In this document: positions 1 through 21,019 of the stretch, in pieces
Position numbering within the stretch: position 1 is the first letter of the stretch
Layout of the letters: each line of letters begins with the position of its first letter
From: Pelotomaculum sp.
GTDB lineage: Bacteria; Bacillota; Desulfotomaculia; Desulfotomaculales; Pelotomaculaceae
Direction of reading: 5' to 3'
DNA: 43,637 bases
Assembly: GCA_018435055.1 (NCBI GenBank)
Contig: JAHDOA010000019.1
Span: forward strand, 1-43,637
Notes under the pieces: generated by a model
Databases searched by the model: none
Seen by the model: the letters and a program-made list of their open reading frames with translations, nothing else
What the model was told of the DNA's origin: nothing
Program-made: the position numbers and the translations under genes

Positions 1-114
1 CCTTCTCGTTTATATCCAGACAGGTACAATCATTAATCTCGTTGTTGTACTGATAAAGTGGCGTATGGCAGCTTTTGAATCCGCTTTCGCTTTCTCTCTG
101 GATTTTCTTGGCAT
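1..114 (-). pseudogene. Broken 5' end of a second RAYT transposase gene (runs off window)
   Basis: On the minus strand a GGAGG site lies 9 nt before an ATG at 114, and the reading starts MPRKSREK. That resembles the start of the intact RAYT at 18264-19025 (MPRQARDK). One frame continues for about 35 codons to a stop. The neighbouring frame supplies SESGF, matching SASGI of the intact gene after MPRQARDK, so a one-base frameshift near codon 7 is the simplest reading. Past that point the similarity to RAYT stops, so this may be only a short 5' remnant joined to unrelated sequence. It is preceded by the same repeat head as other RAYT units (124-182). The gene leaves the window on the left, so its extent is unknown. 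Confidence 0.4.
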
Positions 115-123
115 TAAAAAACA

Positions 124-182
124 CCTCCAATCACAAATTACCTCGGATTGGAAGTGTTGTCAACAACCCCGTCCCCTTGACA
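124..182 (-). repeat. REP-like repeat head, copy A
   Basis: These 59 bp are identical to 40047-40105. The segment holds a small CCAATC/GATTGG hairpin and the palindrome core at about 155-187, where TGTCAA pairs with TTGACA around a C-rich loop (ACAACCCCGTCCCC). It sits directly upstream of the RAYT-like start at 114, as the matching block does upstream of the intact RAYT. Confidence 0.85.
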
Positions 183-199
183 CCCTGTTCACAAATTAA

Positions 200-382
200 T
201 CATTGGAGCCAGGCAAAGTAAACCGACATGATTACAGTATAGGCAACAAGTATGTAAAACCATTTACCTCCAAATTTATACGTGCGCACAGGCGCCAGAT
301 TAAAGACCAGAAGCAGCATCATAACAGCGTAGATGAAGAGGGAAAATACCTGATACGAAAAAAATCTTTCAAATATGAACAT
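200..382 (-). CDS. Small membrane protein (60 aa), unknown function
   Basis: This is a 60-residue protein with two hydrophobic stretches (about residues 10-28 and 40-57) separated by a short basic linker, which suggests a two-helix membrane protein. Its ATG at 382 overlaps the 3' end of the preceding binding-protein gene by 14 bp. It would be the last cistron of the minus-strand array and translationally coupled to it. The end lies 13 bp from the repeat at 124-187. I recognise no family. It could be a tiny accessory subunit for the binding proteins, or a truncated end of a larger membrane protein cut by the repeat insertion. The overlap and the hydrophobic composition are the only support. 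Confidence 0.45.
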   Translation of the reverse strand: MFIFERFFSYQVFSLFIYAVMMLLLVFNLAPVRTYKFGGKWFYILVAYTVIMSVYFAWLQ

Positions 383-1112
383 AAAGGAGAGGATAATGAC
401 ATTTTTCTTTGATCAGGACAGCAGGATCGTTCAATTCTTCAACTGCCGCCTTGAACAGGTCAATGAACTGCTGGTAACGGGGTTCTGACTTGAAACTCTT
501 ATTAACTACCAGCACGTAAGTAACGTGGCCTCCGGCCGCAGTGGATGCCGGTATTTTCTCGCCGTCCATTGTAAATCCCCTTAAAGCGTCCACAACCACA
601 GCGTCAACAGCTTTTTTCTCATAGGCGTAGGGAATGGCTGCCGGCAGCATGGGCGCAGAGATGACACCGGGACCGAAAACAGCGGTCGCTAACTGCTCCT
701 GGTGAGAGCGGTTTTGAGATACCCCGATTTGTTGAGGTTCAGTCCCCGGCCTGGCCACCACGATATCTGAATTAATCAGGACAGGGGTTACGATTTCAAA
801 ACGGCTGTCTTTTTCCAACAGGCTCACGGCCGCGTCCGGGCACATTACGGCAATTTCATACTGGTTGGTACTCAGTGCCCACTGGGAGGTGCTGGCGCAG
901 CAGTCCTTGACCTGGTACAGTTCAAAATCACCCAGTACCTCCGCTTCCTGGTAGCCTTTCTCGTTAACCAGGTAGTGAACGATCATCCCCCCCGTGTCGA
1001 CAGGGGCGCCGATTCTCACCTTGCCGTTGTTACCTTCTTTTTGCGGGGAGGCTGTACAGGCGGCCAACAGCAGCAGGGCAGCAACCACCGTAACAGCAAA
1101 TACCTTACTCAT
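369..1112 (-). CDS. Solute-binding lipoprotein (NMT1/ABC substrate-binding-like)
   Basis: This 247-residue protein starts with a basic-hydrophobic signal and a lipobox ending LLAAC, so the mature lipoprotein would begin at Cys 19 or so. The body resembles periplasmic-binding-protein class II folds: GKVRIGAPVDTGGM near the start, an effector-domain stretch GVISAPMLPAAIPYAYEKK, and a C-terminal helix pair. It is shorter than usual for the NMT1 family (about 300-330), and a CC pair and a further Cys (KDCCAST, AVMCPDA) are present. The gene begins 8 bp after the upstream binding-protein gene, and a weak GGAAGG site lies inside that gene's end. The two are probably co-transcribed paralogous binding subunits. 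The ligand is not readable from sequence, and no cognate permease or ATPase occurs in the window. Confidence 0.7.
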   Translation of the reverse strand: MSKVFAVTVVAALLLLAACTASPQKEGNNGKVRIGAPVDTGGMIVHYLVNEKGYQEAEVLGDFELYQVKDCCASTSQWALSTNQYEIAVMCPDAAVSLLEKDSRFEIVTPVLINSDIVVARPGTEPQQIGVSQNRSHQEQLATAVFGPGVISAPMLPAAIPYAYEKKAVDAVVVDALRGFTMDGEKIPASTAAGGHVTYVLVVNKSFKSEPRYQQFIDLFKAAVEELNDPAVLIKEKCHYPLLYVHI

Positions 1113-1120
1113 AAACGCTG

Positions 1121-2254
1121 CTAAGCCGTCTTGCCTTCCAGTTCAAAAGCTTTTTTCTTCCACTCCTCGTAAGGCATACCCACCGGGAAAACCGGGTCGA
1201 CTTTTTCCTTGATAAAAGTGTCAAAATTATCGGCCCCACTGTCTCTAAGGTACTGGGGCTGGATAAATTCATCTAGTTTTGGAGCGGCATCAAGGGTTCC
1301 GGCAGCCAGCTCCATATCGATCTGCCGCTGCCAATTATTCAAATCTATTTCCCAGGTAAGTGTCCTGCCTTCTGCTACTGTCTTCTTCCAGATAGTCATT
1401 AAGGCTACTTCCTCAGGGACCTGGTAGTTTTTTGCAAAAATTTCAGCGGAGCGGACAGGCTTGGTATAAATATGTTCCATTGCCCTGCTATGTGCTAAAA
1501 CCATCAGCCTGGCCAATTCCGGGTGTTCTGAGGCAAACTGTTTGCTCAGGTGGAAAGCGCAGCATTCGCCCCACTCACCGGATGGCAGCTTGCCATCAAC
1601 GGCTAAGACATGACCGGTTTTTTCATATTCGGCCATCGAAGCCCAGGGATCACAGGTTGAATAAGCAGTTAACCTTCCGGCTTTTAAAGCGAAGTACTCG
1701 TCCATATCGGACATATTTAACACCTCATAATGCTTACCTTCGACTGGTAATCCCAGCTCTTTGGCCATGTTTATCCAAGAGATGCTCGTTTTTTCCGGAT
1801 TGGTGCCGATTGCTAATTGCTTGCCTATTAGCTGCTGGGGATCTGTAATGTCATTGGATGCAACGAGATAATATGAGCCTCCGACATGGTTATTGGCTGC
1901 CACGATTATAGGCGAACCCTTTATGTAAGCCCGCATTGAACCGCTGTTTCCGACATACCCTGCGTCCATCTGGCCTGCTGCCATAGCCTCGGGCACCTTA
2001 CCGTTGCCGGTTACATTGACCTTGAGGCCCAATTCATCAAATATCCCCGTGTCCTTGGCGATACAGGCCGCAGTCATATGGTCGCAGTTATAATAGCCGA
2101 GGTTTACCACGTAATCCTTGTCTTTTTCAGGTATAGCGGTGTTTGCAGCTTTATTTTGATTTGATGTTTTGGACCCGCCGCCGCAGCCGGCCAGTAAAAC
2201 CAGCAAGACGACTAACGCTGTCAGCAGCGGTAATATTTTCTTAAATTTTTTCAT
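1121..2254 (-). CDS. ABC transporter substrate-binding lipoprotein (NMT1/SsuA-like)
   Basis: A 377-residue precursor with signal peptide MKKFKKILPLLTALVV and lipobox LLAGC, exported and lipid-anchored. The mature part has the SsuA/NrtA/THI5-type layout: LGYYNCDHMTAACIAKDTGIF, then GKVPEAMAAGQMDAGYVG, SGSMRAYIKGSPI, and a second-lobe stretch with WGECCAF. The start at 2254 is chosen because AAGGGGGAAA lies 6-8 nt upstream; an upstream ATG at 2281 has no such site. The gene begins 44 bp after the 3' end of tRNA-Sec and precedes a second binding-protein gene by 8 bp. Substrates of this family include nitrate, sulfonates and pyrimidine precursors. Which applies here cannot be told, because the permease and ATPase are absent. 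Confidence 0.82.
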   Translation of the reverse strand: MKKFKKILPLLTALVVLLVLLAGCGGGSKTSNQNKAANTAIPEKDKDYVVNLGYYNCDHMTAACIAKDTGIFDELGLKVNVTGNGKVPEAMAAGQMDAGYVGNSGSMRAYIKGSPIIVAANNHVGGSYYLVASNDITDPQQLIGKQLAIGTNPEKTSISWINMAKELGLPVEGKHYEVLNMSDMDEYFALKAGRLTAYSTCDPWASMAEYEKTGHVLAVDGKLPSGEWGECCAFHLSKQFASEHPELARLMVLAHSRAMEHIYTKPVRSAEIFAKNYQVPEEVALMTIWKKTVAEGRTLTWEIDLNNWQRQIDMELAAGTLDAAPKLDEFIQPQYLRDSGADNFDTFIKEKVDPVFPVGMPYEEWKKKAFELEGKTA

Positions 2255-2297
2255 GATTGTTTCCCCCTTATGCCCAATCACTAAAGTAAAAGATTTT

Positions 2298-2392
2298 TGG
2301 TGGGGAGAAGTCGGATTCGAACGCGACTCCCTCCTGCGTGACAGGCGGACAACGGGTTTGAAGCCCGCGGGGGACCATCCCCATTTCTCCCC
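2298..2392 (-). tRNA. selC: tRNA-Sec (anticodon UCA)
   Basis: The minus strand folds into a 95-nt selenocysteine tRNA. The 8-bp acceptor stem pairs GGGGAGAA with TTCTCCCC, followed by discriminator A and an encoded CCA. The D-arm is GGGGA/TCCCC, and the anticodon loop CTTCAAA (UCA anticodon) closes on a CGGG/CCCG stem. A long variable arm is built on CCTG-TCAC-CAGG, and the T-arm is GTCG...TTCGAAT...CGAC. The 8-bp acceptor, long extra arm and UCA anticodon are diagnostic. It lies 17 bp after the stop of the lipoprotein gene and 43 bp before the binding-protein start on the same strand, so it may be processed from a polycistronic transcript. selA, selB and selD are not in the window. Confidence 0.95.
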
Positions 2393-2409: not shown

Positions 2410-2904
2410 TTAACAGCAGTCTTTCATCCCCTCCCCAAATAAATCTTCCAGTTCAACTCCTTCCACACGGTATATCACGTAGCCGATATTGGCGCCTTTC
2501 ATGCCCTGGACAATAAATTCCAGCGGCGGTTTATCATCGATATCCCTGAAAGTAATTACCTGGTTGGAAACCGGCGCCGGCACATCATTGGTGCACTGGT
2601 ATTTACCTTTTTTATCCAATATCACCAGCATCTTATTCTTTTCCCGACTCTCCCTGTAAATCACCACCAAATCTTCAGTATTGTCCCCGTCCAGGTCGGC
2701 GGTCGCGCATTTTATTACCTCTTTGCCAGGGTTAGCCGAGATAAAAAAACCGAGACAGGGGGATGGTTCTCCTGCTGCGCTTTCTCTGCTTATATCACTT
2801 TGCTCTCCTTTGTCAATTGACACCTTGCCGCAGCCGCACGCGGCAATACAAACAAGCAGACACATCAGCAAGCTGCAGGTCAAGGTCGGCAGCCGCTTAA
2901 ACAT
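2410..2904 (-). CDS. Cys-rich lipoprotein with FG-GAP/VCBS-like repeat
   Basis: A 164-residue protein with a signal peptide and lipobox near LVCIAAC, then a GCG start of the mature chain. A calcium-loop-like motif, CATADLDGDNTEDLVVIY, recalls FG-GAP/VCBS beta-propeller repeats; a second weaker unit is FRDIDDKPPLEFIV. The chain ends in DCC at the carboxyl terminus, an unusual exposed cysteine pair. Its ATG overlaps the permease stop (TGATG), so translation is coupled to the permease and the two products probably work together outside the membrane. I know no named function. Metal or thiol binding by the terminal CC is a guess from composition. Confidence 0.7.
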   Translation of the reverse strand: MFKRLPTLTCSLLMCLLVCIAACGCGKVSIDKGEQSDISRESAAGEPSPCLGFFISANPGKEVIKCATADLDGDNTEDLVVIYRESREKNKMLVILDKKGKYQCTNDVPAPVSNQVITFRDIDDKPPLEFIVQGMKGANIGYVIYRVEGVELEDLFGEGMKDCC

Positions 2905-3992
2905 CAGGCGGCCCTCACCTTGGCCAGCGCCCGTTTAAATCCGGGCCACAGAGCGTAAACACCGAGCAGCAGAACAACTGCTGTGCATAGATAGCGCAGG
3001 GGCTCCGGCGCGGCAAAGATAAGGTTGTTGGCCATACCGACTGTCTGGCGGGATTTGCTCAGATCGAAAAAAGGTGTAAACCCGGGAAGTAAAAATAAGT
3101 TGGTCAGGTAACCCACTATGAAAGAGGTGCTGAGCAGTACTGAGGAATAAATCAGAACTGTCCTGCGCCCAATCATCTTGTACATGCTGATCAGTTCGGG
3201 CAGGTTGGTGGCCGCCCCTGTCATCAAAAAGGTAATGGCCAGCCCCGGCGCCGCCCCGCTGGCTATCAGCGCGGCGATAAACGGGATATGGCCCACCGCG
3301 CAGACGTACATGATCGCGCCAAGCACGGCGATGCCGGCGACGGAGATCAAACCCGGGTTGCCCAGGTACTCCTGGATAAAGGCCGGGGGCGCCAGGACAA
3401 TAATCAGCCCGGCCAGCAGCATGCCCACGCACACGTATTTGCTCACAGATACCCCCATATCGAGGAAGCCCCACCGCAGCCCTGTCTGCAGTTTCTGAAC
3501 AAGGCCGGCCTGCTCCCCTGGTTCCAACTCTCTCATTTCCACGGGTCCCTCCATGCCGGGAGCATGGATCTCCGGTCCGGCGAGCTTGTTGCCGATCATA
3601 CCGATCAGCATTGGCACAACAAACCCGGCCACCAGGTAGATCGTGGCGATTTGCGGCCCCAGAAAACCGTAGGCCAGCAGGACAGCAGCGGGATTAATGA
3701 TCGGGGTGGCCGTCATAAAGGCCAGGGTCGGCCCCAGGTAGGCGCCGGAATAATAAAGGCCAAGGCCTAGCGGGATGACACCGCAGCTGCAGATCGGCAG
3801 GAGCATGCCGGAAGCAGTGGCTTTGATCAGCGCTGAGACACTCCGGTTTCCCAGCATGCGCTGCAGCCTGTCCGGGCTTATTAAATTGTGCATCAGCCCG
3901 GCCAGGACGAAGCTTATAATAAGCCATACCGAGGCGCCGTTGAGGATGTCCAGGGCGGTCAGGATGACTTTCTGCGTCAACTCCAGGACCAA
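2904..3992 (-). CDS. UPF0718 / SO_0444-type permease
   Basis: A 362-residue polytopic membrane protein with about eight to ten helices in two halves. The first half has the family signature PICSCGVIPLGLGLYYSG followed by FMTATPIINPAA. The second half has CAVGHIPFIAALIASG and FLMTGAATNLPELISMY. This family (PF03773, DUF318) includes ArsP and the SO_0444 copper/zinc exporters, and the CSCG motif is its hallmark. The start is a TTG at 3992, 7-11 nt after AAGGGG; an ATG in the right place is lacking. It follows the small CxxC redox protein by 7 bp and overlaps the lipoprotein start. Pairing of this permease with a TM0996/MTH895-type redoxin is common. The exported species (metalloid, metal or thiol adduct) is not determinable. 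Confidence 0.85.
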   Translation of the reverse strand: MVLELTQKVILTALDILNGASVWLIISFVLAGLMHNLISPDRLQRMLGNRSVSALIKATASGMLLPICSCGVIPLGLGLYYSGAYLGPTLAFMTATPIINPAAVLLAYGFLGPQIATIYLVAGFVVPMLIGMIGNKLAGPEIHAPGMEGPVEMRELEPGEQAGLVQKLQTGLRWGFLDMGVSVSKYVCVGMLLAGLIIVLAPPAFIQEYLGNPGLISVAGIAVLGAIMYVCAVGHIPFIAALIASGAAPGLAITFLMTGAATNLPELISMYKMIGRRTVLIYSSVLLSTSFIVGYLTNLFLLPGFTPFFDLSKSRQTVGMANNLIFAAPEPLRYLCTAVVLLLGVYALWPGFKRALAKVRAA

Positions 3993-3999
3993 AATGTAA

Positions 4000-4254
4000 T
4001 CATCCCCTTAGCGCTTCTTCTATCGCTTTTTCAATTATTGCTTTGGACAGGCTGTCGATTTTCTTCCTGCCGTCAATGATCATGGTCCCCTTGGTCACCA
4101 TGCCGTACTTCTTCAGGTAGTCGAAATCCTTGCCCGCGTAATATATCTTGACTTCCACACCGTCACCGTATTTGGCGGCAGCGTTTTTAATGGTCTGGAC
4201 ATGCTCGTCACAGCAGGGGCAGGTGTTTATAAACTCCACTTTAATCTTTGGCAC
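4000..4254 (-). CDS. Glutaredoxin/thioredoxin-like small redox protein
   Basis: An 84-residue protein with the beta-alpha-beta start KIKVEFINTCPCCDEHV, where CPCC would be the redox or metal-binding CxxC and the following CC adds a third thiol. A second half, GMVTKGTMIIDGRKK, has the TKG segment in place of the usual cis-proline loop of thioredoxins. This matches the thioredoxin_3 (TM0996/MTH895) family. It is cytosolic with no signal. The preceding gene's stop codon is embedded in AAGGAGGGG, an ideal ribosome-binding site for this gene, 14 bp away. It lies immediately before the CSCG permease and probably delivers or reduces the permeated species. It may equally be a thiol chaperone for the molybdo-enzyme. 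Confidence 0.8.
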   Translation of the reverse strand: MPKIKVEFINTCPCCDEHVQTIKNAAAKYGDGVEVKIYYAGKDFDYLKKYGMVTKGTMIIDGRKKIDSLSKAIIEKAIEEALRG

Positions 4255-4268
4255 TGTAATCCCCCTCC

Positions 4269-6395
4269 TTAAGCTTTTTCAATCTGGCATAAAAGCGCTT
4301 TGAACACCGGAAACCCTGAAACAGGGTCCCTGTTATAAAAGTCCGCCAGATCGTTAACGTTGGCCTGGCGCCAGGCCTCGACCTGGGTCGGGTTCCCGCC
4401 GCCCATGTTAACCTCTGTCTGGCCCGGTAAAACTTTTTCAGTCACATCGGCGTAAAAGAAAACCCGTCCTCTCCTGGTGCTTACCGCTACCCTGTCCCCA
4501 GTGCTGATACCCCGCTCTGCCGCGTCAACGGGGTTGAGCAAGGCCAGCGGTTTTTCCTGCAGTTTCACCAGTCCGGGCACGTTCAGGTGCTGGGAGCGGA
4601 AGGTTGACTGGATCCGCGCGCCGGTGTTCAATACCAGAGGGAATGCCCTGTAGAGCTCATGGTTCTGCAGGGGACCTTCCGCCGGTTCAGTGTAGACAGG
4701 CAGCGCGTCGTAGCCGTGCTTGGACATCAGGCTGGAGGTGATCTCCATTTTACCTGAAGGGGTAGGGAAACCCGGCTTATTATCTTCCCTCAATAACCCC
4801 AGTTCGTATTTTTTGTAACGGCGCTCCGGAGCGGGGAGCTTAATACCGTCCGGGCTATTTTGCACAGCTTCAAGCAGATCAGGCTTACCGGCGAAAGCCT
4901 TTTCAATAACCTCTTCTTCGTTTTGCGGGTAGAGGTGACCGCAGCCCAGCCTGTTTGCCAGTTCAGCCATAATCATGATACAGTTTTTTGACTGACCCAA
5001 CGGTTCTATCACACGCCTCCTGAGGCGTACATAGTCAGGGTAGCGCTGGTAGGAATTGATTTCATAATAAGTGGCCGACGGCAGCACCACGTCCGCAAAC
5101 TGCGCGTCCCGGGTCATCACAAGGTCTATTACCATCATAAAATCCAGTTTGCGGTAGGCTTCTGCAAAGATTTCAGGCTGCGGGTAGGAGGTCAGGGTGG
5201 AAGAACCGTTAATCAGCAAACCCTTTACCGGGTAAGGTTTTCCTTCCAGAGCTGCCCTGGGAAATTCCATGAAGTGGGCGCACCTGGTCAGTTCATAAAA
5301 CAGCGGGTATTTTTCCGCGCCTATCGGCAGTATCCCGTCCGGCTCCTCGAATCCCTCCCGCCGCACGGGTTGGGCTGATGGGGTGTTGATATATAAGCCG
5401 CCCGGCACGTCCAGGTTGCCTGTCAGCCCCCACAGGATATAGAGCGCCCTGATACTCTGCACACCGCTGTTGGTATACTCCAGGCCGGTGTACGTGCGCA
5501 GGCTGACTTTCTCTGTGTTTGCTATTTCTCTGGCCAGCGCCGTTACGGTTTCCGCCGGCACCCGGGTGATGCTCTCCACTTTTTCCGGGGTGAACTCCTG
5601 TACGTATTCCCTGAGCTCCGCAAAGCCCAGCGTCCAGTTCTCCACAAACTTACGGTCGTACAGCTTTTCATTGATCACCACGTTGAGCAGGCCTAAAATC
5701 AACGCGCCGTCAGTGCCCGAACGCACTCCCACCCACTGGTCGGCCCGTCCGGCTATATCACTGCGCATCTGGTCCACGGCTATAACCCTGGCCTTGTTTC
5801 GCTGCGCCCGGGTAATCCTTTTAAAGAATACCGGCGGGGAATCGGTGACCGGGTTAGTACCCCATACAACGATAAGATTGCTGTTTTCCAGGTCCGGGGC
5901 CAGACAGGCTCCGGGCAGGCCGAAGTTGGCCATGGGCGCCAGGATGCCGAAGGAAACAAAGCACAAGGATCCCGTGCTGGCGATGTTGGGCGAACCGAAC
6001 GGCAGCAACAGCTTATTCGCTACAGAATCACGGGCGTTGCAGAATTCCACCATAGACTGTTCAAAAGCGCCCCGCCCGGAGTGGCTCAGCAGGGCCTGGG
6101 GGCCGTCTTTTTCCTTAATCTCATTCATTTTTTGCGCCGCCAAATCCAGCGCTTCATCCCAGGAAGCTTCACGGAACTTCCCTTCACCGCGCTCTCCCGT
6201 GCGGATCAGCGGCGTTTTCAGGCGGTGCGGCGAGTATACTATCTCAGGGGCGTACCTGCCCCTGACACACAAATTCGCGTAAGGCGCGCCTTTGAGCGGC
6301 TCAGCTTTTACCAGCCTGCCGTCTTCCAGCGTAACTTCCACCGCACAGCCACCGGGGCATATACCACAGATGGAAGGTTTTTTTTCAACAACCAA
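4269..6395 (-). CDS. Molybdopterin oxidoreductase (DMSO-reductase family, cytoplasmic)
   Basis: A 708-residue catalytic subunit. Near the N-terminus lies a [4Fe-4S] site (CGICPGGC ... NLCVRG). The molybdopterin domain follows (YSPHRLKTPL, EASWDEALDLAA), then a probable Mo ligand Cys in STGSLCFVSF, the WGTNPVTDSP and RSGTDGALILGLLNVV motifs, and a C-terminal molydopterin-binding domain with MEITSS and LLNPVDAAERGI. There is no Tat signal, so it acts in the cytoplasm, and no small Fe-S subunit is adjacent. I chose the TTG at 6395 because GAGGG lies 8 nt upstream; the TTG at 6410 lacks a site. The polysulfide/thiosulfate and acetylene-hydratase-like branches are the closest I recognise. The substrate is unknown. 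It heads the redoxin-permease-lipoprotein array and diverges from the double-cubane reductase. Confidence 0.88.
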   Translation of the reverse strand: MVVEKKPSICGICPGGCAVEVTLEDGRLVKAEPLKGAPYANLCVRGRYAPEIVYSPHRLKTPLIRTGERGEGKFREASWDEALDLAAQKMNEIKEKDGPQALLSHSGRGAFEQSMVEFCNARDSVANKLLLPFGSPNIASTGSLCFVSFGILAPMANFGLPGACLAPDLENSNLIVVWGTNPVTDSPPVFFKRITRAQRNKARVIAVDQMRSDIAGRADQWVGVRSGTDGALILGLLNVVINEKLYDRKFVENWTLGFAELREYVQEFTPEKVESITRVPAETVTALAREIANTEKVSLRTYTGLEYTNSGVQSIRALYILWGLTGNLDVPGGLYINTPSAQPVRREGFEEPDGILPIGAEKYPLFYELTRCAHFMEFPRAALEGKPYPVKGLLINGSSTLTSYPQPEIFAEAYRKLDFMMVIDLVMTRDAQFADVVLPSATYYEINSYQRYPDYVRLRRRVIEPLGQSKNCIMIMAELANRLGCGHLYPQNEEEVIEKAFAGKPDLLEAVQNSPDGIKLPAPERRYKKYELGLLREDNKPGFPTPSGKMEITSSLMSKHGYDALPVYTEPAEGPLQNHELYRAFPLVLNTGARIQSTFRSQHLNVPGLVKLQEKPLALLNPVDAAERGISTGDRVAVSTRRGRVFFYADVTEKVLPGQTEVNMGGGNPTQVEAWRQANVNDLADFYNRDPVSGFPVFKALLCQIEKA

Positions 6396-6664
6396 TCCAA
6401 CATCCCTCAAATCTTAGTATATATGTCATTAATTCACTGTTACCACGAAATAATTAATTGCTTTCTCCTTTTATCTAAAAGATCCCTTTATATCTATCAT
6501 TTGAATTTTTTATTGACATAAAATGAGTCATAAAAACAATAAATTATTGAAATAAAGGATTATTAATCATAAACATAAAAGTCTTATACATCAGATGAAA
6601 AGCTCAAGTATGATAATCCGTTATACTAGCTAATTTTGAATTCATGTACAGAGGGAGTGTTGTT
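6396..6664. promoter_or_regulatory. Divergent AT-rich promoter region
   Basis: This 270-bp region separates the molybdo-oxidoreductase (minus) from the double-cubane reductase (plus). On the plus strand a perfect TTGACA occurs at 6513-6518 without a good -10 at 17 bp, and TATACT occurs near 6623. On the minus strand TATACT lies about 20 bp upstream of the oxidoreductase start. No clear operator palindrome was found. The divergent layout suggests shared control of the two enzymes. Confidence 0.4.
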
Positions 6665-7945
6665 ATGGCTAACGATTACCGCAGAATGTGGGAGTCTCTC
6701 GGCGTGGATCTGGAGGCGCACGACCAACTCCTGAGTATACTGCCGCCCACCTTTGGGACAGTTTACATGAGCCAGGAGAACAGGCCGGAGGGAATGGAAT
6801 ACTTTAATTTTGTGTTCAGCGAGGTGCACGGGCTACGCATTCAGGAACTGCAGGAACACAAGGCTAAAGGCGGGAAGGTCATCGGCGCTTTTTGCGTCTT
6901 TGTCCCCGAGGAAATTATCCGCGCCGCCGGCGGGATCTGCGTCGGATTGTGCTCAGGCGCTGAGATCGGCGCGGCCAAGGCGGAACAAGTGCTGCCCAGA
7001 AACATCTGCCCGCTGATCAAGTCCTTTATGGGCTTCAAGCTGGGCAAGGTTTGCCCTTACTTCGAGTCCTGCGACATGGTAGTGGGGGAAACCACCTGCG
7101 ACGGCAAGAAGAAGGCTTTTGAGATCCTGAACGACTACGTGCCGGTGCACGTGCTGGAAACCCCCCAGATGAAGCGGGATAAGGACAAGGAACTGTGGCG
7201 CAGCGAGGTGCGGGACTTCCTGGCAGAGGTGGAAAATTTCACGGGGAACAAAGTCACCGCTGAATCGCTGCGGCAGGCGATTAAAGACATCAACGGCAAG
7301 CGCAGGGCTCTGCTGCGCCTGTCCGAACTGCGTAAAAACAACCCCTCGCCCATCAGCGGCAAAGACTGCCTGCTGATCGAGCAGATCTCCATGTACGACG
7401 ACGTGCCGCGTTTTACCGTCCAGCTGAACGCGCTCTGCGACGAGCTTGAGGTAAGGGTGAAAGAAGGAAATGGCGTTGGGAAACAAGGCGCGGCGCGGCT
7501 TATCGTCAGCGGGACGCCAATGGCCCTGCCGAACTGGAAGGCGCCTCACGTCATTGAGACCAGCGGCGCCGTGATCGTGGCCGAGGAAATGTGCACCGGC
7601 CTGCGTTACTTTGAAAACCTGGCGCCGGAAAACGGTGAAACAGTGAACGACATGGTTGGTGATATCGCCGCCCGCTACCTGGACATCAACTGCGCCTGCT
7701 TCACGCCCAACAAACCCCGTATGGATAAACTGGTGCAGCTGGCAGAGGAATATAAAGCAGACGGGATTATCCACTGCTCCCTCGCCTTCTGCGACCCCTA
7801 CCTGGTGGAGGCCAACCGGGTGGAAAAGGCTCTGCAGGAACATAATATACCCCTTCTGAAGCTGGAGACCGATTACGGGCAGGAGGATTCGGGCCAGATC
7901 AAGACCAGGGTGGAAGCCTTCCTGGAAATGATTGGAAAGAAATAA
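6665..7945 (+). CDS. Double-cubane-cluster anaerobic reductase (HgdB/BcrC-like)
   Basis: A 426-residue member of the 2-hydroxyacyl-CoA dehydratase D/benzoyl-CoA reductase BcrC superfamily, of the branch called double-cubane cluster protein. It matches that branch in its opening (MWESLGVDLEAHDQLL, SQENRPEGMEYF), in GAFCVFVPEEIIRAAGG, GLCSGAE, RNICPLIKS, and in the cysteine-rich GKVCPYFESCDMVVGE-TTCDGKKK segment. Known members bind an [8Fe-9S] cluster and, with an ATP-driven activase, reduce small substrates such as acetylene and azide; the natural substrate is unknown. The start at 6665 has GAGGGAG 8 nt upstream, against a weakly supported ATG at 6644. The usual activase (ASKHA ATPase) is not adjacent. 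The gene ends before a strong terminator at 7986, so it is monocistronic. Confidence 0.9.
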   Translation: MANDYRRMWESLGVDLEAHDQLLSILPPTFGTVYMSQENRPEGMEYFNFVFSEVHGLRIQELQEHKAKGGKVIGAFCVFVPEEIIRAAGGICVGLCSGAEIGAAKAEQVLPRNICPLIKSFMGFKLGKVCPYFESCDMVVGETTCDGKKKAFEILNDYVPVHVLETPQMKRDKDKELWRSEVRDFLAEVENFTGNKVTAESLRQAIKDINGKRRALLRLSELRKNNPSPISGKDCLLIEQISMYDDVPRFTVQLNALCDELEVRVKEGNGVGKQGAARLIVSGTPMALPNWKAPHVIETSGAVIVAEEMCTGLRYFENLAPENGETVNDMVGDIAARYLDINCACFTPNKPRMDKLVQLAEEYKADGIIHCSLAFCDPYLVEANRVEKALQEHNIPLLKLETDYGQEDSGQIKTRVEAFLEMIGKK

Positions 7946-18218: not shown

Positions 18219-19101
18219 GGGTGTCAGGGGGACGGGGTTGTTGACACTTTTTAAACAACCCTTTTACACCTTCAAAACAACACCCCTATTTACACCGGTA
18301 AGTCTTTCGATCTGTCTGATTGATAAGCGGTACCCTTCCTTAAGTTCTTTGAGATATTTATTCCTGGTTACCTTATCTAGCCTTTGTAGTTCTAAAGGAT
18401 TTTCAACCTGGCATACTTCCTTGATTATTTGCCCTGCTTCCTTATCCGTCAAACCTTGCCTATCTTGCATTTCCAAACATTGATCATCGTTTGCAGCCTT
18501 GCAAAACTGAATGATTTTTTCTACCGCCTTTCCTTTTGATGCGCCGAATAGTCCCAAAGCAAAACCAACGTCGACGAGCTGCGGCTTATTTATATACTCA
18601 CCCATGCTGCTCCATTGATAGTGTTCGATAGAGGTGGCAATTCCGGCTTTTAGCGGATTTTGATGGATGTACCTGAGGACGGTCAAGAAATAGCTATCAT
18701 TTTCCACCACTTCGCTTTTGAATCTATCTTGAAATAAATTCCCTATCCTTTCGTATTTCGCGTTGTACCAATAAACAAAACTACCACATATCCGGCGCAT
18801 AATCTGTTCCAGCGGTTCATTGCCGACCTTCAATAATAAATGCACATGGTTGTCCATTAAGCAGTAGGCATAAATCTCATATCCGCTTTTTTCCCTATAA
18901 TTTTGCAGGGTCAGAAGAAATCTCGAATAATCTTCATCGTCGTGAAAAATGTCCTGTCTGTTTATGCCCCTCATCATTATATGATAAATACCGCTGGCGC
19001 TTTTATCTCTAGCTTGTCTCGGCAAATGCCCACACCTCCCAATCCAATATTACCTTGAATTGGAAATGTTGTCAACAACCCCGTCCCCCTGACACCCCTG
19101 A
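18219..19101. mobile_element. RAYT unit: transposase gene between inverted REP copies
   Basis: The element spans an inverted pair of palindromes. The left core at 18221-18247 reads GTGTCAGGGGGACGGGGTTG, and the right core at 19067-19097 is the reverse complement arrangement. A single REP-associated tyrosine transposase lies between, on the minus strand. Between the start codon and the right repeat sits a CCAATT...GGATTGG hairpin also found in the copies at 124 and 40047. The unit lies between the ABC-F gene and menA. Confidence 0.75.
18264..19025 (-). CDS. REP-associated tyrosine transposase (RAYT, Y1_Tnp/HUH)
   Basis: A 253-residue HUH-type tyrosine transposase related to IS200/IS605 TnpA. 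The N-terminus MPRQARDKSASGIYHIMMRG is typical of RAYTs. The HUH metal site is in YCLMDNHVHLLLKV, and a probable catalytic Tyr lies in VLRYIHQNPLKAGI or the nearby FVYWYNAKYERI stretch. A C-terminal helix-turn-helix-like end, GYRLSIRQIERLTGVNRGVV, may bind the palindromes. The start is TTG at 19025 with GGGAGGTG 6 nt upstream. RAYTs are domesticated relatives of IS200 TnpA that recognise REP hairpins. Here the repeats flank the gene on both sides and recur at several other sites. Length and motifs look intact. Confidence 0.9.
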   Translation of the reverse strand: MPRQARDKSASGIYHIMMRGINRQDIFHDDEDYSRFLLTLQNYREKSGYEIYAYCLMDNHVHLLLKVGNEPLEQIMRRICGSFVYWYNAKYERIGNLFQDRFKSEVVENDSYFLTVLRYIHQNPLKAGIATSIEHYQWSSMGEYINKPQLVDVGFALGLFGASKGKAVEKIIQFCKAANDDQCLEMQDRQGLTDKEAGQIIKEVCQVENPLELQRLDKVTRNKYLKELKEGYRLSIRQIERLTGVNRGVVLKV

Positions 19102-19108
19102 CACCCCA

Positions 19109-21019
19109 TCAACTTTCAACAAGCGCAAGCCACTTTTCCATGTGCTCGTGCAGCTGGCTGCGGGCTTCCTCAAGTTTGCTTTGCCGCTCCTGGCAGGCTA
19201 CGTAATCCTGGTAAACCTCAGGTAGAAAAAGCTCCTCCTCGAGGCGGGAAATTATTCCCTCGAGATCAGCGATAGCCTGCTCCAGCTCTTCCACCCGGCG
19301 GCGCCGCATGCGTTTTTGCCGCTCTTCTTCCTTCTTCTGCAGGTAGTTTCTCTTTTCCGTACTTTCCGCCCGTGCCGGTTCGGCGCCGGCAGGCCTGCCC
19401 GCCTGCTGCTCCCGTTCCGCTTTTTTCGAAAAATAGTAATCGTAGTTGCCAAGGTAGCTGGAGATATCGCCGTTCGAGAGTTCCAGCACCCTGGTCGCTA
19501 TTTTATTAATGAAATACCGGTCGTGCGAGACAAACAAGATGGTACCCGGATAGCCGTCCAGGGCCTCCTCCAGCACCTCCTTGCCGGGCAGGTCCAGGTG
19601 GTTGGTGGGTTCGTCCAGGAGCAAAAAGTTTGCCTTCCGCAACATTAACGCTGCCAGGGCCAACCGGGATTTTTCGCCGCCGCTCAGATCAGCCACGTGT
19701 TTTTTTACCTCGTCTCCCGAAAATAAAAACCTGCCCAGCACTGTCCGTATATCCACCTCGTCCAGGTGGGGGTAACGGTCCCAGAGTTCGTGCAGGACCT
19801 GTTTGTCTCCGCTCAGGCCTTGCTGTTCTTGATCATAATAACCAAGCTGGACATGGCTGCCCAGCCTGATTCGCCCAGCCAGCGGCGGAAGGCGGCCGGC
19901 GATGGTCTTCAGGAGGGTGGATTTGCCGATACCGTTCGGGCCCACCAAAGCTACCCGCTCACCCCTGTTAATCTGTAAATCCAAACCGCTGGCCAGGGGC
20001 AGACCCGCGTACCCGATATCCAGCACGGCTATCTGCAACACCTCCATGCCGCTGGGACGCGCAGGGTTAAAGGAAAGTGCCACACGCCGCTCCCTGGCGG
20101 GGCGCTCCAGGCGCTCCATTTTTTCCAGCGCTTTGAGCCGGCTTTGCGCCCGCCTGGTGGTGTCCTTGGCGGCGATATTGCGCCGTACAAATTCCTCCTG
20201 GCGGGCGATTTCGGCTTGCTGGCGGTTGTATTCTTTCTGCTGCTGTGTGAGCAGGGCAGTTTTTTGTTGTACATACGAGCTATAGTTGCCGGTATAACGG
20301 GTAAGGCCGGCGGGGGTTAATTCATATATAATCTTGATCAGCGCGTCCAGGAAATAACGATCGTGCGATACCACCAGCACAGCGCCGCGATATGAGTTCA
20401 GGTACTGCTCCAGCCAGGCCAGGTTGTCCATGTCCAGGTAGTTGGTCGGTTCGTCCAGGATTAACAGATCCGGTTCGCCGAGCAGGCAGCGGGCCAGGGC
20501 CAGGCGGGTCTTCTGGCCTCCGCTTAAGGTGTTCACCGGTGTTGTGAGGTCTGACTCGGCAAATTTCAGGCCGCTCAGCACCATGCGGATGCTGGTCTCA
20601 TACTCGAAGCCTCCCCGGCTTTTAAACAATGCGTAAAGGTTGTCGTAGTCCTCCAGTAGTTGCCTGCTTGCCCCCTCGTCCGCTGAGGTTTCGGACATCT
20701 GCCGCTCCATTGCCCGCAGCTTTTTTTCCATATCAATAAGCGGTGTAAACACTGTAAGCATCTCGTCCCAGATGCCGCGTCCCGATTCCAGGCCGCCGTC
20801 CTGGGCCAGATAGGACAGCGACAGCCCTCTGGCTCTGGTAACCTCTCCCGCGTCGGGCGCCAGATCGCCGGTCAATATTTTCAAAAGGGTGGATTTGCCC
20901 GCCCCGTTGACGCCGACAATACCAGCCTTCTCTCCCTCTTGAACGGTGAGGCTGAGCCCGGTGAAAACCCGGTGAGAGCCGAAAGATTTTGCTATTTGCG
21001 CCGCCTGCAGCAGAATCAA
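19109..21019 (-). CDS. ABC-F family ATPase (Uup/YdiF/EttA-like)
   Basis: A 636-residue soluble tandem ABC ATPase with no membrane segment. Domain 1 has GVNGAGKST, LSGGQKTRLALARCLL and LLILDEPTNYLD. Domain 2 has GPNGIGKST, LSGGEKSRLALAALML and LLLDEPTNHLD. Between them lies the helical linker with NYSSYVQQKTALL and RRAQSRLKALEKMERL. A charged coiled-coil C-terminus of about 90 residues (residues 545-636, EKRNYLQKKEEERQKR) matches YdiF/Uup types. These proteins act on stalled ribosomes. The TTG start at 21019 has GGGGAG 7 nt upstream. No antibiotic-resistance specialisation can be argued. The gene ends 11 bp from the RAYT unit. Confidence 0.9.
   Translation of the reverse strand: MILLQAAQIAKSFGSHRVFTGLSLTVQEGEKAGIVGVNGAGKSTLLKILTGDLAPDAGEVTRARGLSLSYLAQDGGLESGRGIWDEMLTVFTPLIDMEKKLRAMERQMSETSADEGASRQLLEDYDNLYALFKSRGGFEYETSIRMVLSGLKFAESDLTTPVNTLSGGQKTRLALARCLLGEPDLLILDEPTNYLDMDNLAWLEQYLNSYRGAVLVVSHDRYFLDALIKIIYELTPAGLTRYTGNYSSYVQQKTALLTQQQKEYNRQQAEIARQEEFVRRNIAAKDTTRRAQSRLKALEKMERLERPARERRVALSFNPARPSGMEVLQIAVLDIGYAGLPLASGLDLQINRGERVALVGPNGIGKSTLLKTIAGRLPPLAGRIRLGSHVQLGYYDQEQQGLSGDKQVLHELWDRYPHLDEVDIRTVLGRFLFSGDEVKKHVADLSGGEKSRLALAALMLRKANFLLLDEPTNHLDLPGKEVLEEALDGYPGTILFVSHDRYFINKIATRVLELSNGDISSYLGNYDYYFSKKAEREQQAGRPAGAEPARAESTEKRNYLQKKEEERQKRMRRRRVEELEQAIADLEGIISRLEEELFLPEVYQDYVACQERQSKLEEARSQLHEHMEKWLALVES

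Follow-up and report, generated by a model that had tools for sequence, protein, structure and literature searches.

The locus considered here brings together two elements that are each already known, tRNAs of the ReC/ReU kind and the SAO operon. The latter (Sec-assisted organometallic) has been described with six selenoprotein genes (PMC13188914). Members of the selC*/tRNA-ReC group have a bulged T-stem as a family trait, the bulge being given as an adenosine (PMC7609411), and a Desulfotomaculum tRNA of the ReC kind puts Cys at Sec codons via SelB, according to a review (PMC11415595). It is also known that selC may be nested in selB or overlap it (Mukai 2021, PMC8124441). In the literature examined, which covers both halves by way of reviews, neither a ReC/ReU tRNA within an SAO operon nor its repeated placement ahead of yedE-yedF was found. 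The window, by which we mean the whole stretch of 43,637 nucleotides analysed (contig JAHDOA010000019.1 of Pelotomaculum sp., assembly GCA_018435055.1), contains the following features.

1-180, no strand assigned: repeat element marking the operon break; it recurs where contig C8 begins, ahead of a 5'-truncated saoP
369-1112, minus strand: saoB, Cys form of an ABC substrate-binding (seleno)protein (NF040727 with 283.4 bits, the match reaching position 234 of 262; 3' end lost)
1121-2281, minus strand: saoX, substrate-binding subunit of an ABC system, the next gene after the tRNA (NF040735, 515.6 bits, cut-off 300; likely ATG at 2254)
2298-2392, minus strand: tRNA with UCA anticodon, A73 and encoded CCA, assigned by sequence to the selC*/tRNA-ReC lineage, ReU-like
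2410-2904, minus strand: saoC, lipoprotein of the Cys-Cys-COOH kind, the gene just before the tRNA (NF040734, 176.1 bits, cut-off 80)
2904-3992, minus strand: saoE, efflux transporter (NF040736, 542.8 bits; ArsP_1)
4000-4254, minus strand: saoT, thioredoxin-like, Cys form (NF040730, 146.2 bits)
4269-6410, minus strand: molybdopterin oxidoreductase adjoining the operon, its position variable in relatives (Pfam PF00384/PF01568/PF04879; neighbour table)
6644-7945, plus strand: double-cubane-cluster reductase, divergent neighbour (NF040772, 492.3 bits)

The gene order saoT-saoE-saoC-[tRNA]-saoX-saoB is continued in relatives by saoP-saoA-saoD, and the clustered SaoB, SaoX, SaoC, SaoE and SaoT of the window score far above the curated NCBIfam cut-offs, by which an operon of unknown kind is ruled out. 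A preliminary description of this DNA had called the neighbours of the tRNA a lipoprotein and a binding protein; both genes are present, and the description is completed by their naming as SaoC and SaoX. It had also spoken of a transport and molybdo-enzyme locus, in which the molybdo-enzyme gene is an adjoining, variable part. The proposed link of the locus to selenocysteine is upheld by the SAO system of NCBIfam and by the permease gene saoP with its in-frame UGA. All 17 of the 17 saoP copies in the order, including that on contig C8 of the window genome, have one in-frame TGA at the same site (GLGWMSVI-U-AEFIATSAGFGY). The synonymous positions of codons +6, +7, +8, +10, +11 and +12 past this TGA, six of the seven codons from +6 to +12, are invariant; in the remainder of saoP the codon identity of synonymous pairs averages 0.54. 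The frozen codons match the hairpin GAGUGCCG-GYUU-CGGC-U-ACUC, spaced as expected for a bacterial SECIS, and we read them as a SECIS-like hairpin, which appears in the minimum-energy fold of some sequences and not of others. Selenoprotein genes with an in-frame UGA and a SECIS are represented in this clade by saoP only, as saoB, saoC, saoT and saoX have no internal UGA and carry Cys at their motifs. An in-frame stop in the saoX of G017 was considered as a Sec codon and ruled out, being a TAG in a decayed operon. The UGA and SECIS of saoP are also retained where the operon has no tRNA (G016, G020, G022, G023) and in other families. The window genome has one selB. On a side note, genomes with the tRNA in the SAO operon have one selB each, and those SAO genomes without it there that belong to genera g2 and g9 (G016, G020, G019, G023) have two or three, these being few independent cases.

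The reading that we hold, with somewhat more confidence than doubt, proposes a second UGA-reading tRNA, derived from ReC, that is made with the SAO operon and serves UGA codons including that of saoP. A Cys-inserting selC*/tRNA-ReC ancestor would have entered the operon between saoC and saoX in an ancestor of Pelotomaculaceae. The tRNA would then be transcribed with the operon and released by RNase P and 3' processing. For its charging we infer the Ser-to-Sec route as the most likely, or else a less efficient charging with another amino acid, after which SelB could deliver the tRNA to UGA codons with a downstream SECIS. One such target would be the UGA of saoP, farther down the same operon, and a preferential benefit to saoP may arise if production of the tRNA with the operon provides more UGA-decoding capacity while saoP mRNA is being made. 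This coupling would help but not be required, since the saoP UGA occurs without a nearby tRNA and the tRNA occurs without the operon; saoP could be served by the canonical tRNA-Sec alone. It also counts against this explanation that the window genome has a shortened saoB and a saoP without its 5' part.

The tRNA lies 17 bp from the saoC stop (2393-2409) and 43 bp from the saoX ATG (2255-2297), or only 16 bp from saoX if the GTG at 2281 of the longest open reading frame is used. A search of the minus strand between saoC, the tRNA and saoX found no terminator-like sites, and no promoter-like site was found directly upstream of the window tRNA. Upstream of the SAO-embedded copies, promoter scores differ from those of shuffles by no more than about one standard deviation, and a strong promoter of the tRNA's own was rejected, as no signal in these copies stands clearly above the shuffles. 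On the strength of the spacing, the missing terminators and these promoter scores that do not clearly exceed the shuffles, co-transcription of the tRNA with the SAO operon appears likely. The same-strand, operon-like array with gaps of 17 and 43 bp and no terminator, as first described, agrees with both the coordinates and the site search. The gene-order comparison suggested along with it finds the arrangement in eight Pelotomaculaceae genomes (G000, G004, G008, G010, G015, G017, G018, G024), of which G000 is the window genome, and thus kept in seven relatives. The saoC-saoX spacer is without the tRNA in G016, G020, G021, G022 and both operons of G023, and none of the SAO operons examined outside Pelotomaculaceae contains it; in G007 and G021 an intact tRNA sits outside the SAO operon. 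The preliminary description had named two contrary outcomes, a promoter before the tRNA with a terminator after it, or unrelated neighbours throughout; neither a clear promoter nor a clear terminator was seen, and the neighbours are related in the seven genomes. When SaoE, SaoC and SaoX are placed in a tree, the operons with the tRNA form one clade, with G016 and G020 outside it; G021, G022 and G023 lie inside it, and their absences look like losses. G015, also within the clade, has a tRNA with GCA and U73 at the same saoC-saoX site, and therefore, unless the tree is imperfect, the anticodon and position 73 underwent repeated change or reversion. Because of the losses in relatives and of the tRNA kept intact beside a decayed SAO operon in G017, the linkage of tRNA and operon is not obligatory.

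It is possible, though we think it doubtful, that the tRNA is a hitch-hiker which landed once in the operon gap and has its own promoter in the end of saoC, its location being without regulatory meaning. Such an origin would fit G010 and G022, members of the same genus whose near-identical spacers contain the tRNA and cleanly lack it, respectively, as well as the intact copies that accompany a decayed operon (G017) or lie elsewhere in the genome (G007, G021). It is also consistent with the weak -10-like hexamers of some spacers. However, the promoter scores of the embedded copies are those of shuffled sequence to within about one standard deviation, and chance does not predict that in other families the same tRNA class should repeatedly be placed immediately ahead of selenium genes. 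Among 78 ReC/ReU loci of the order, counts over which are phylogenetically non-independent, the putative selenium transporter gene yedE (TIGR04112, 476 bits) lies directly downstream on the same strand in 22, from six families, mostly followed by yedF and separated from the tRNA by 23-74 nt (240 in one case). Other loci of this set include one with a divergent yedE, eight in SAO operons and four near a double-cubane reductase gene; homologues of the reductase beside the window operon occur near several ReC tRNAs. Of 24 control loci of canonical tRNA-Sec, all from Pelotomaculaceae, none has any tested gene within 1.5 kb. Since a one- or two-copy gene stands beside the tRNA in six families, chance adjacency is not credible. 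Beyond the order, G388 has yedE-tRNA-yedF, and in G010, G015 and G018 yedE lies 8-18 kb from the operon with the tRNA. A more extended form of our proposal, which we offer tentatively and with less confidence than the proposal itself, is that the SAO operon has its own dedicated UGA-decoding tRNA, which would have entered as a Cys-inserting ReC and become Sec-type, so that recoding capacity tracks the mRNA, and that the tRNA-yedE-yedF arrays elsewhere follow the same principle for selenium uptake.

Several further observations concern the wider set of loci. Outside the order, a gene like the double-cubane reductase beside the window operon follows a ReC-type tRNA within about 25 nt at L225 (G231) and L234 (G159). 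At L018, L019, L113, L094 and L098 a conserved gene, encoding a protein of about 70 residues (EELNKIKLKMKALGFSQQQIESIIEKTL), comes after the ReC tRNA. Two ReC-type tRNAs by yedE, L117 (G075:C1:2999043) and L127 (G072:C58:9171), have ACA instead of GCA, and G075 has three ReC copies. One strand of G103:C240 carries two matches with 1.3 kb between them, a ReC tRNA and another tRNA-Sec-like sequence of lower score (19146-19242, 20520-20615).

The identification of the tRNA as tRNA-Sec stands in part. It matches RF01852 (Rfam, named tRNA-Sec) over 2302-2392 of the minus strand at 47.8 bits, barely above the gathering cut-off of 47, the encoded ACCA taking its end to 2298; model R1 scores it at 99.3 bits. 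However, a canonical tRNA-Sec is found elsewhere in the genome (contig C49, 34080-34173), with an RF01852 score of 71.9 bits, 24 above that of the window tRNA, and with the G73 discriminator of SerRS identity where the window tRNA has A73; nearly all Pelotomaculaceae genomes carry such a canonical copy. Judged by its sequence, the window tRNA is not selC proper; it is an additional, divergent member of the selC*/ReC/ReU lineage. Its tRNA-Sec-like body has the 8-bp acceptor stem and the one extra T-stem base of selC*/tRNA-ReC, together with a long variable arm; of the features expected for CysRS, U73 with GCA (or UCA), it has UCA but A73. A search finds close relatives across the order Desulfotomaculales. 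UCA with A73 occurs in nine genomes of Pelotomaculaceae (one of them G73), a family that includes Pelotomaculum propionicicum, and the rest of the order, plus G015 of Pelotomaculaceae, has GCA with U73-CCA, save that two copies read ACA in the anticodon. The window tRNA appears to match tRNA-ReU, reportedly the derived Pelotomaculum form of ReC with UCA (Vargas-Rodriguez et al. 2018), in ReC descent, UCA anticodon, lost Cys identity and Pelotomaculum lineage. As a separate observation, the encoded 3' end of the UCA forms L011, L012, L015, L016 and L017 is often TCA or CTA rather than CCA, and therefore CCA must be added there post-transcriptionally.

A role as a bypass for low selenium, in the manner of tRNA-ReC, with Cys or some other amino acid that suits A73 being placed at UGA codons, is rather unlikely. 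Descent from the GCA/U73 family would be in keeping with such a role, as would the Cys-inserting Desulfotomaculum tRNA of the same kind and the GCA/U73 tRNA of G015 at the same operon site. However, both main Cys identity elements are altered in Pelotomaculaceae (UCA anticodon; A73 or G73), and the Pelotomaculum form reportedly inserts Sec.

That the tRNA is a relic in a broken operon seems improbable. Its variable arm has one mismatch, its T-stem is bulged, its score barely passes the Rfam cut-off and the operon is broken in the window genome, all of which could be expected of a relic. However, none of the 8 acceptor pairs is broken in any of the nine UCA copies (nine genomes), pairs 2:93 (G-C, A-U, G-U) and 50:62 (C-G, G-U) show compensatory changes across the nine UCA sequences, CCA is encoded in the window tRNA, and a bulged T-stem is characteristic of the tRNA family. 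From the intact acceptor pairs and compensated changes, this tRNA type is evidently under structural selection; with relatives across the order and the same gene order in seven other genomes, these features argue that the tRNA is not a chance match. An ARAGORN run on the window did not call a tRNA at 2298-2392, probably because of the bulged T-stem base. As to the operon itself, saoB loses its last residues at a break near residue 235, followed by about 200 bp of other sequence and then the repeat at the contig edge; contig C8 (L064, G000:C8) has the same kind of element and then saoP without about 97 5' codons. Since both breaks adjoin repeat elements, the operon after saoB is either interrupted or rearranged, or mis-assembled at the repeat. 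In these regions (window 1-368; C8 1-150) the repeat adjoining both breaks is of the REP type, and the transposase remnant beside the C8 break resembles the window open reading frame at 18264-19025. In Pelotomaculum propionicicum MGP, by comparison, saoX, saoB and saoP of the operon are all intact. Finally, despite its Rfam name, the idea that the organism has this tRNA as its sole, ordinary selC is ruled out for practical purposes by the canonical copy on C49 and its counterparts in nearly all genomes of the family.

If the proposed co-expression holds, it would give ReC/ReU tRNAs a role and a regulatory context, provide a naturally occurring example, open to testing, of an mRNA expressed together with its recoding tRNA, and tie the choice between Cys and Sec at UGA to selenium transport. 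Compared with selC* tRNA-Cys/tRNA-ReC (Mukai et al. 2017; Vargas-Rodriguez et al. 2018, RNA Biol), the window tRNA shares the tRNA-Sec-like body, the 8-bp acceptor and the bulged T-stem, and host genomes in both cases also have a canonical tRNA-Sec; the bulge, an adenosine in the published account (PMC7609411), is mostly C in Desulfotomaculales. Where the other families of the order have GCA/U73 forms, the window tRNA shows UCA with A73, and it lies inside an SAO operon. It resembles tRNA-ReU, to which it is likened by description rather than by sequence, in ReC derivation, UCA and Pelotomaculum lineage, but differs from tRNA-ReU as described in its placement in an SAO operon, which the literature examined does not mention. 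The operon is like the SAO operon (Haft and Gwadz 2023; review PMC13188914) in having saoT, E, C, X, B, P, A and D above the NCBIfam cut-offs and a UGA in saoP, and unlike other SAO operons in the UGA-reading tRNA between saoC and saoX in the Pelotomaculaceae clade. As with selC in or over selB (PMC8124441), a tRNA-Sec-type gene would form part of a transcript of Sec-system protein genes; here, however, it is intergenic and stands in a user (transport) operon rather than in a gene of the Sec machinery.
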